Source: Flavobacteriaceae bacterium
Lineage (GTDB): Bacteria; Bacteroidota; Bacteroidia; Flavobacteriales; Flavobacteriaceae
DNA: 33,116 bases
Assembly: GCA_022424955.1 (NCBI GenBank)
Contig: JAKMGK010000009.1
Location: 1 to 33,116, forward strand
Direction of reading: 5' to 3'
The position numbers and the translations under genes are program-made. This document shows, piece after piece, positions 7,946 through 9,337 of this stretch. Numbering within the stretch: position 1 is the stretch's first letter; every line of letters begins with the position of its first letter. The notes under the pieces are model-generated. The model saw only the letters and a list, made by a program, of their open reading frames with translations, made no database searches and was not told where the DNA came from.

Positions 7946-7980
7946 AAATTAAAAAAGGCCTGTCGTGATGACAAGCCTTT
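7946..7980 (-). terminator. trp attenuator: intrinsic terminator before trpE
   Basis: Read on the minus strand, AAAGGCTTGTC (7980-7970) pairs with GACAGGCCTTT (7964-7954) across a 5-nt loop; one pair is G.U. A U-rich run follows directly. The hairpin sits between the leader peptide (ending 8018) and the trpE ATG at 7936, where a terminator must be conditional if the operon is to be expressed. Confidence 0.85.
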
Positions 7981-8003
7981 GATATGTTGATACAGCGTGT
8001 TTC

Positions 8004-8025
8004 ACGAATAAATTATTTTATTCGT
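8004..8025 (-). promoter_or_regulatory. Leader hairpin overlapping the trpL stop codon
   Basis: ACGAATAAA and TTTATTCGT (minus strand, 8025-8017 and 8012-8004) form a perfect 9-bp stem with a 4-nt loop, beginning just after the tandem Trp codons and including the leader stop codon. It is in the position of the 1:2 pause hairpin of classical attenuators. A ribosome stalled on the Trp codons would block its 5' arm. Its 3' side continues into TCGTGA (8007-8002), which can pair with TCACGA (7968-7963) in the loop and 3' arm of the terminator, a possible 6-bp antiterminator nucleus. Confidence 0.6.
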
Positions 8026-8059
8026 TCCACCAATTTGAGCTGTTGTTTCTCGTTTTCAT
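8018..8059 (-). CDS. trpL: trp operon leader peptide with tandem Trp codons, 13 aa
   Basis: The ORF reads M-K-T-R-N-N-S-S-N-W-W-N-E-stop (ATG 8059-8057, TAA 8020-8018). Two adjacent TGG codons (8032-8027) in a 13-residue peptide directly upstream of a terminator and trpE are the textbook sign of ribosome-mediated attenuation. When charged tRNA-Trp is scarce, a ribosome would stall on the pair and change folding of the downstream leader RNA. The ORF was absent from the supplied track because of its size. A candidate promoter lies only a few bases upstream, so the peptide may be translated from a nearly leaderless mRNA. The antiterminator pairing visible by eye is short, so the exact switching structure is uncertain; the leader peptide itself is convincing. 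Confidence 0.85.
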   Translation of the reverse strand: MKTRNNSSNWWNE

Positions 8060-8064
8060 TGAGT

Positions 8065-8095
8065 CAAATATAATTCAAAAAATTAATGTGTTCAA
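8065..8095 (-). promoter_or_regulatory. trp operon promoter
   Basis: On the minus strand TTG (8095-8093) is followed by 20 bp and TATATTTG (8072-8065), matching the Bacteroidota -33/-7 consensus. Only 5 bp separate the end of the -7 element from the trpL ATG, so transcription should begin at or within a few bases of that start codon. Confidence 0.65.
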
Positions 8096-8110: not shown

Positions 8111-8191
8111 TTATTTTTTGGCGTGTGATCCATCACAAAATCCATCTGGATTTTGTGTATTTCCACAACCACATTTTGGTCGATTAGGCAT
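8111..8191 (-). CDS. CDGSH-type iron-sulfur microprotein, 26 aa
   Basis: Not in the ORF track. The minus strand reads ATG at 8191-8189 to TAA at 8113-8111. The 26-residue product is little more than a CDGSH motif: KCGCGNT, then QNPDGF, then CDGSH, followed by AKK. Three Cys and one His in C-x-C-x9-C-D-G-S-H order are the ligands of a 2Fe-2S cluster in the mitoNEET/CDGSH family; here the spacing between the second and third Cys is nine rather than the common eight. Full-length family members are about 70-100 aa, so this is an unusually minimal form. It lies 3 bp after the yceI stop in the same reading frame (TAA AAT ATG), so coupling or readthrough is possible. CDGSH proteins normally bind redox-active clusters as dimers; whether 26 residues can do so is unknown. 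Confidence 0.72.
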   Translation of the reverse strand: MPNRPKCGCGNTQNPDGFCDGSHAKK

Positions 8192-8194
8192 ATT

Positions 8195-8767
8195 TTATAT
8201 TTTTAAGGTTACATCTAGTTCAAAATTATTGTCTATTGCTTTGTCTCCTAGATTGTCAAAGAAAGAATTTGATCCATAGCGAACATTGTGTTTAGAACGA
8301 TCGATATTTACTTTAGCCTTTGCTTCGTTTCCAATTACAGTTAAATCAAAGCTTGCCTCATTAGTAATTCCCTTGATGGTGAAGTCTCCTGATACAGCAT
8401 AAACTCCATTGCCTTTTGCCGTTACCTTAGTAAATACTAATTTGGCTTCTGGGTGAGTTGCTACGCCAAAAAAGTCATCAGAGCTTAAGTGTCCAATTAA
8501 TCTTTCAGCAGACCCTCCTTCTAAATCTGTGCAGGTCATTGAAGCCATGTCCACGATAAAGTTTCCACCAGTTACTGTGCCGTTGTCTAACGTAAAACTA
8601 CCAGATTTAAGGGAGATATTTCCTTCGTGGTACTTTCCAGTAAATTTTTCCCCTTTCCAGTGAATGTTACTAGCAGCAGCGTCAATCGCTGTTTCTTGTG
8701 CTTGAACGTTTTGTGCACCAAATAAAAAGGCTACACCTAGGGCAATGGATAAAATTGTTTTTTTCAT
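8195..8767 (-). CDS. YceI-family periplasmic lipocalin-like protein
   Basis: The 190-aa product starts with a typical Sec signal peptide (MKKTILSIALGVAFLFGAQNVQAQ, cleavage after AQA/AQ expected near residue 22-24). The mature part shows the YceI fold signature: ..SNIHWKGEKFTGKYHEG.. at the N-terminus, then LIGHLSSDDFFGVATHPEA and FTIKGITNEASFDLTV. YceI proteins form beta-barrels that bind isoprenoid chains such as polyprenols or ubiquinone-like lipids; the physiological role is poorly defined and often linked to stress. It follows marR by 39 bp and precedes the CDGSH microprotein by 3 bp, so the three genes look like one unit. Confidence 0.93.
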   Translation of the reverse strand: MKKTILSIALGVAFLFGAQNVQAQETAIDAAASNIHWKGEKFTGKYHEGNISLKSGSFTLDNGTVTGGNFIVDMASMTCTDLEGGSAERLIGHLSSDDFFGVATHPEAKLVFTKVTAKGNGVYAVSGDFTIKGITNEASFDLTVIGNEAKAKVNIDRSKHNVRYGSNSFFDNLGDKAIDNNFELDVTLKI

Positions 8768-8806: not shown

Positions 8807-9241
8807 TTAGGTTGAAGTAAGTTTTGAGATAAGGTCAATCATTTTTTCTTTTTCGATAGGGCTAATATGTTGAACAAGTTGTGCTTCTTTTACTTCTAAT
8901 TTATTGTCAATGTTGGTTAAAAGATTTAAACCTTTTGTTGTAATTGTAATTTCAACTTTCCTTCTGTTGTTTTCACAAATATCTCTCTCGACCAACTTCT
9001 TTTCGATTAGTTTATCTACTAGTCTAGTGGTGTTGCTCATTTTGTGAATCATATGTTCATTAAGAGTTGAGAGATTAGCAGGTTTTCCTTTTTGACCTCT
9101 CAGGATTCGCAACACATTGAATTGGGGTAATGAAATCCCATAAGCCTTTGTCAATACATTCAACTCGTCGTTGAGTTTACTGCCCGATCGCAGTAAGGCA
9201 ACCACCAATTCTCTATTCAATAAGACATCTTTATTTGTCAT
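8807..9241 (-). CDS. MarR-family transcriptional regulator
   Basis: I place the start at the internal Met (MTNKDVLLNREL, ATG at 9241-9239), giving 144 aa, the usual MarR length. The longer track ORF (start 9322) would run through the promoter and operator described next and adds 27 residues without family resemblance. The winged helix is visible: GISLPQFNVLRILRGQ, the recognition region LNEHMIHKMSNTTRLVDKLIEKKLVER, and the wing ICENNRRKVEITITTKG. MarR dimers repress their own unit and are released by small ligands or oxidation. There is no cysteine pair diagnostic of OhrR; the only Cys seen lies in the wing (DICENN). The position ahead of yceI and the CDGSH microprotein suggests it controls both. 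Confidence 0.9.
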   Translation of the reverse strand: MTNKDVLLNRELVVALLRSGSKLNDELNVLTKAYGISLPQFNVLRILRGQKGKPANLSTLNEHMIHKMSNTTRLVDKLIEKKLVERDICENNRRKVEITITTKGLNLLTNIDNKLEVKEAQLVQHISPIEKEKMIDLISKLTST

Positions 9242-9245
9242 TACA

Positions 9246-9266
9246 ACAATTGTATGTACAAACATA
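9246..9266 (-). promoter_or_regulatory. marR promoter -7 element with overlapping operator palindromes
   Basis: On the minus strand TATGTTTG (9266-9259) fits TAnnTTTG. It overlaps the dyad TTGTatgtACAA (9250-9261), which in turn overlaps the perfect palindrome ACAATTGT (9246-9253). A repressor bound here would cover the -7 element and start site, as expected for autoregulation by MarR. No good TTG at -33 was found, so the promoter may be weak or activated. Confidence 0.5.
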
Positions 9267-9306
9267 AGCAAATTTTTAAAACTGGTAAGTTTTGATAAAA
9301 AAATGA

Positions 9307-9337
9307 TTTGAGGAGTGGACAATTCGAATTAAATTTG
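9307..9337 (+). promoter_or_regulatory. Promoter of the rhodanese gene
   Basis: TTTG (9307-9310), 19-bp spacer, TAAATTTG (9330-9337): a close match to the Bacteroidota consensus. The ATG at 9351 follows 13 bp after the -7 element, so the 5' UTR is short. Confidence 0.65.

Follow-up and report, generated by a model that had tools for sequence, protein, structure and literature searches.

The window, by which we mean the whole stretch of 33,116 nucleotides that was analysed, comes from a marine bacterium and carries on its minus strand a gene for a YceI lipocalin, which is the sole YceI detected in its genome. Upstream of yceI lies a gene for a MarR-family regulator, whose true start probably lies downstream of the listed TTG, and downstream lies a very short open reading frame (ORF), termed micro-CDGSH here (Table 1). 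A sequence-only reading of this DNA had described the ORF as an ATG-to-TAA frame of 26 residues with a CDGSH motif, which begins 3 bp after the yceI stop codon and in the same frame. Exactly this was found: the yceI TAA is followed by AAT and then by the ATG of the peptide. The uncommon spacing of the motif, C-x-C-x9-C-D-G-S-H, could likewise be verified in the sequence. A degenerate DNA pattern of the motif matches the window once, and it matched none of 100 shuffles.

Two further features were observed. A trp attenuator, with tandem Trp codons in its leader peptide, separates the peptide gene from trpE; it reaches 33.5 bits against the Rfam model Bacteroid-trp (RF01692) and thus stays under the gathering score of 49. 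In the genome of the window there is, in addition, a gene for a protein of about 363 amino acids with two canonical CDGSH motifs, which is probably a type 7-like CISD.

Table 1. Features in the window and at the loci compared with it.
Feature	Position	Strand	Description
micro-CDGSH ORF	8111..8191	(-)	26 aa, MPNRPKCGCGNTQNPDGFCDGSHAKK; ATG at 8191, TAA at 8111
core motif	8123..8173	(-)	CGCGNTQNPDGFCDGSH; putative ligands Cys7, Cys9, Cys19, His23
yceI	8195..8767	(-)	190 aa; N-terminal signal-like segment, YceI lipocalin; Pfam PF04264, 86.7 bits (cut-off 23.7)
MarR-family regulator upstream of yceI	8807..9322	(-)	Pfam PF01047, 38.2 bits; wing cysteine (RDICENNRR)
trp attenuator	7951-8079	(-)	between peptide gene and trpE
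trp leader peptide	8059-8018	(-)	MKTRNNSSNWWNE
terminator-like hairpin of trp attenuator	7980-7951	(-)
two-motif CDGSH protein, genome of the window	G000 contig C47:14558-14752		about 363 aa
Bacillales MAG locus L109	1537-2801	(-)	MarR stop overlaps peptide start, then Flavodoxin_2 azoreductase-type gene; DoxX upstream
CDGSH-YceI fusion loci			L117, L214, L215, L217-L221; L131 partial; L073 ambiguous (internal ATG)

Conservation of the short ORF and its linkage to yceI

The ORF is present in 16 of the 18 other genomes of the genus, with 75-96% identity and always directly adjoining yceI on its 3' side. The pooled pN/pS of the ORF is 0.10 with a pS of 0.59 (22 aligned codons, 17 genomes), compared with 0.26 for the last 60 codons of YceI. 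Mean pairwise identity amounts to 95% at codon positions 1 and 2 and to 58% at position 3, and it is 45% over the 60 nt past the peptide stop, a rough figure from an ungapped comparison. The putative cysteine and histidine ligands, whose loss in close relatives would have spoken against the sequence-only reading, are all four invariant. Judged from these codon comparisons, the micro-CDGSH gene is under strong purifying selection. The conserved place in the genus, the coding signature in the codon positions and the single motif match against none in the shuffles show that the ORF is almost certainly a real translated gene. The two genomes of the genus without the peptide ORF (G003 and G014) have no detectable YceI either; this double absence may reflect a shared loss or a missing contig, since the two MAGs are about 85% complete.

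Because the ORF is very short and scores below the Pfam cut-off, and because a stop codon interrupts the motif in three relatives, it could be taken for a chance ORF or for the remains of a once complete CDGSH gene that is decaying. The interruptions are in-frame TAA codons at L095, L121 and L216, of which the last falls in the CDGSH portion of a YceI fusion and is followed by an ATG downstream; two other copies (L155 and L164) have no common start codon, and all of these may be products of decay or of assembly errors. However, the low pN/pS, the recurrence of the family across phyla, the presence of Shine-Dalgarno sites, the existence of YceI fusions and the separate canonical CDGSH genes in most genomes of the genus leave hardly any room for this explanation, which was ruled out by selection, conservation and fusions.

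The sequence-only reading had further proposed that the motif is either a minimal stand-alone peptide or a domain that is added to YceI by stop-codon readthrough. The shared frame and the 3 nt gap in the window would suit readthrough, as would the fact that relatives possess CDGSH-YceI fusions. However, within the genus the peptide ATG follows the yceI stop at a distance of 2, 3, 4 or 5 nt, and all three frames relative to yceI are represented (10/19/14) in 43 loci of a wider scan, among the matches listed. The common frame in the window is therefore coincidental, and the gene encodes a small protein of its own. In addition, the known fusions carry the CDGSH motif at the N-terminus rather than at the C-terminus, and the Bacillales copies possess their own Shine-Dalgarno sequence. 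Readthrough was rejected, since spacers of 2, 4 and 5 nt in close relatives put the peptide in other frames, and its probability is next to nil; the other half of the proposal stands in the form of a conserved stand-alone gene.

Among the matches listed, yceI is located immediately upstream of the peptide gene and on the same strand in 45 of 63 Bacteroidota loci, namely 43 loci plus L133 and L160, which were added by a six-frame search. Two others have the motif fused to YceI, one locus is cut and 15 are without an adjacent yceI; most of the Bacillales and Opitutae loci listed are also without yceI alongside. The pairing persists in several gene contexts: MarR-yceI-peptide followed by trp genes, a HxlR gene divergent from yceI-peptide, a Crp-like regulator in front of yceI-peptide, and yceI-peptide-FMN reductase, with pirin in some loci. 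In Polaribacter, the yceI-peptide pair has no adjacent regulator.

In three families of the same order (f8, f11 and f15), the two parts are joined in single ORFs of about 220 amino acids, which consist of an N-terminal CDGSH motif, a short basic linker, a hydrophobic segment and the YceI domain. The complete fusions score 77.6-88.6 bits against PF04264. In five of them the linker contains no ATG, GTG or TTG, and YceI is thus probably not produced there without the CDGSH part. Basic residues precede the hydrophobic segment, which suggests a cytosolic motif and an exported YceI. Gene order, shared absence in G003 and G014 and gene fusion support the link to YceI that had been proposed for the peptide, and micro-CDGSH is very likely a functional partner of YceI. 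Pairing and fusion probably reflect a common job in redox chemistry.

Distribution of the family and comparison with CISD proteins

The family has the consensus CxCGNTx[ND]xxGxCDGSH and mostly comprises 25-30 residues. A profile search, which leaves the spacing free, was run on 237 sampled genera of the Flavobacteriaceae and detected the family in about a dozen of them; all members there have the x9 spacing. A wider scan with one genome per species and a pattern that fixes the motif gave at least 119 stretches, 80 of which were read as loci, mostly in MAG assemblies. Among the matches listed, most of these 80 are ORFs of 25-30 amino acids in Flavobacteriales, including Polaribacter glomeratus, one member comes from a Spirosoma MAG, and eight come from Paenibacillus, Brevibacillus or other Bacillales (e.g., MGKCACGNTQNAEGNCDGSHAKKDK). 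In each of the eight Bacillales ORFs, the ATG is preceded by a GGAGG-type Shine-Dalgarno sequence, which independently points to translation. In Opitutae and in another Verrucomicrobiota MAG, also among the matches listed, the x9 motif occurs twice within a single ORF of 54-63 amino acids. In the phylum and class samples, which are weighted to near-complete genomes, only the window itself matched; the family is rare in these samples, which does not imply its absence, and no micro-CDGSH was found in a plasmid search. A search of the open-access literature found neither a published description of such a CDGSH family nor a paper that names both 'CDGSH' and 'YceI', and the novelty of the family is therefore provisional.

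Three side groups were noticed. No yceI was seen near the tandem-motif loci L106, L118, L142, L143, L145, L158 and L162. A subgroup such as MSNKPKCGCGNTQNPDGFCDGSHNNQED stands alone, with no adjacent yceI (the second copy of L138, L140, L157, L168, L064 and L071). Furthermore, PSP1-domain (RicT-like) ORFs of about 390 amino acids end in the same x9 CDGSH motif (L108, L222, G726 and G808), and the PSP1 domain of L108 was confirmed by Pfam.

Known CDGSH iron-sulfur proteins (CISDs) share a 17-residue consensus, PhiCXCXX(S/T)XXXP PhiCDG(S/T/A)H, with an x8 spacing, and need a beta-sandwich with an N-strand and a P motif (Lin et al. 2011, PMC3174974). Micro-CDGSH contains the CISD ligand pattern CxC + CDG(S/T/A)H, and in CISD numbering it keeps C2, C4, T7, C13, D14, G15, S16 and H17 of types 1-7. 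C7, C9, C19, D20, G21 and H23 of the window peptide are invariant in 34 members, most of which were collected with a pattern that fixes those positions, while members from the genus and the family came from protein and profile searches. In contrast to CISD types 1-7, however, one extra residue lies between Cys4 and Cys13: the spacing is x9 in all members that were found without forcing it, and the full 17-residue consensus does not fit. P11 of the CISDs is replaced by Gly, and most members have Lys or some other residue that is not hydrophobic at position 1. The stretch ahead of the first Cys is just 3 (Bacillales) to about 10 residues long, that behind the His is short as well, and the N-strand, the P motif and the dimerisation sheet are missing. 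With 25-30 amino acids, micro-CDGSH is also shorter than the smallest CISD described in PMC3174974, the type 3 protein PcCISD with 53 amino acids. The Opitutae forms resemble the type 6 tandem CISDs (MmCISD, 3tbn; human CISD3/Miner2) in having two CDGSH motifs in one short chain, but they differ in their length of 54-63 amino acids, in the x9 spacing of both repeats and in the lack of an intervening sheet sequence.

Profile models largely overlook the family. The window peptide reaches 15.1 bits against Pfam zf-CDGSH (PF09360; cut-off 29.5) and aligns to profile positions 32-48 of 48; other members reach 11-16.6 bits or give no match, and the Opitutae tandem, with 16.6 bits, is still under the cut-off. 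An NCBIfam search of the window peptide gave no match. The small size and the x9 spacing explain why both sets of models miss the family. When its profile was compared with that of canonical CDGSH proteins from the same group, the ligands lined up at the cost of a single gap (95%, E 3.5e-8), and the profile matches in the PDB were to CISDs only and weak (E 0.02-0.05). AlphaFold2 gave models of low confidence for the Opitutae tandem (pLDDT 64, pTM 0.34) and for a 30-aa member (pLDDT 68, pTM 0.24), and a Foldseek search of these models against the PDB found no match; the predicted structures are too uncertain to use. Given the extra residue, the lack of P11 and the lack of room for the CISD beta-sandwich, micro-CDGSH is, by sequence, not a CISD of types 1-7. 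It probably works like the CISD loop or descends from it.

A possible role in quinone reduction

The neighbouring genes that could be named by Pfam encode MarR, HxlR and cNMP-binding regulators, FMN_red and Flavodoxin_2 (azoreductase type) proteins, pirin and DoxX. Among the matches listed, an FMN reductase gene is located 3' of the peptide in 15 loci and pirin in five; in the window and in most loci, no FMN reductase lies beside the peptide. A wing cysteine is present in 18/18 MarR neighbours and a cysteine in the N-terminal region in 11/11 HxlR neighbours; the loci include many close relatives, neither count therefore consists of independent cases, and the MarR count comes with no base rate. 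MarR/DUF24 quinone sensors carry a cysteine at such positions and control an azoreductase (PMC6943732). The loci resemble the YodB/CatR-type (MarR/DUF24) quinone response of Bacillus in that HxlR- or MarR-type cysteine regulators occur beside azoreductase or FMN reductase genes. They differ in that the description of that response contains neither a CDGSH peptide nor YceI. In the sequences compared, the micro-CDGSH gene is accompanied by yceI and by recurrent cysteine regulators and flavin/quinone reductases, with conservation of the ligands and of the x9 spacing.

MitoNEET transfers electrons via its CDGSH cluster from FMNH2, which is produced by a flavin reductase, to ubiquinone (PMC9490426). 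YceI lipocalins bind ubiquinone-8, and a co-encoded cytochrome b561 was proposed to re-reduce the quinone (PMC9113575). As with the redox protein of the BcnA-LcoA system described there, micro-CDGSH, a putative redox protein, is co-encoded with a YceI lipocalin; the partner in BcnA-LcoA, however, is a transmembrane haem protein, whereas micro-CDGSH is predicted to be soluble and is fused to YceI in some lineages. On the basis of the mitoNEET chemistry, the quinone binding of YceI and the operons joining FMN reductase, CDGSH loop and lipocalin, a relay in oxidant defence is proposed. The peptide would be a cytosolic product of an operon shared with yceI, would dimerise (the Opitutae form would be made as a tandem) and would hold a [2Fe-2S] cluster via three Cys and one His. 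Electrons would reach the cluster from FMNH2, the product of either an NAD(P)H:FMN reductase or an azoreductase, and would be handed to a quinone at the inner membrane face, while at the outer face the YceI lipocalin would bind the same isoprenoid quinone or oxidised forms derived from it. Together they would act as a small quinone-reducing anti-oxidant device that is induced through MarR/HxlR sensors.

It is moderately likely that the peptide binds an iron-sulfur cluster. The flavin-to-quinone relay is a possibility to be held with considerable reserve. The explanation as a whole, a free-standing CDGSH loop that is encoded in an operon with yceI and forms a flavin-to-quinone device, is the best that we can offer and is tentative, with somewhat less than an even chance of being right. 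The beta-sandwich that known CISDs need, and for which a chain of 25 residues is too short, speaks against it, as do the loss of P11 and of the hydrophobic position 1, the mostly non-adjacent FMN reductase genes, the 15 of 63 Bacteroidota loci and most of the Bacillales and Opitutae loci (among the matches listed) without yceI, the low confidence of the AlphaFold2 models and the few relatives whose motif is broken by a TAA or whose ORF lacks a common start codon.

The relay competes chiefly with two other explanations, a zinc site and a function as a sensor. Three Cys and one His would also suit zinc, and the loop might be a mini-finger with zinc or mononuclear iron, i.e., a structural or regulatory Cys3His peptide that does not transfer electrons; the missing elements of the CISD scaffold and the short stretch recognised by Pfam fit this explanation. 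However, CDGSH together with T7, D14, G15 and S16, kept across phyla, is the signature of a [2Fe-2S] site, and the neighbours include flavin/quinone redox genes, so that a zinc or mononuclear iron site is unlikely. Alternatively, the cluster or the thiols could serve as a sensor or sink for redox state, NO or electrophiles and tune a regulator, YceI export or the iron supply without carrying electrons. The recurrent MarR/HxlR neighbours with their conserved cysteines, the position of the loop just before the signal/TM segment of YceI in the fusions and the binding of NO by the mitoNEET cluster all agree with such a role. The regulators, however, vary by lineage (MarR, HxlR, Crp-like) and none is adjacent in Polaribacter, whereas YceI stays, and the FMN reductase linkage favours electron flow; a sensor is thus also improbable.

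Returning to the relay, its widest reading is that proteins of about 25 residues from several phyla bind a mitoNEET-type [2Fe-2S] cluster without the CISD scaffold, that they form an NAD(P)H-to-quinone route with a flavin reductase and a YceI lipocalin, and that in some lineages they are welded to YceI with the loop inside and the lipocalin outside; in this full form the reading is doubtful. If a cluster is bound, few natural iron-sulfur proteins would be as small as this peptide, and the CDGSH loop would work without the beta-sandwich that was held to be obligatory, which would bear on the origin of the CISDs. YceI lipocalins, whose role is unsettled, gain a genetically linked and sometimes fused partner, which makes the re-reduction of YceI-bound quinones a testable question.
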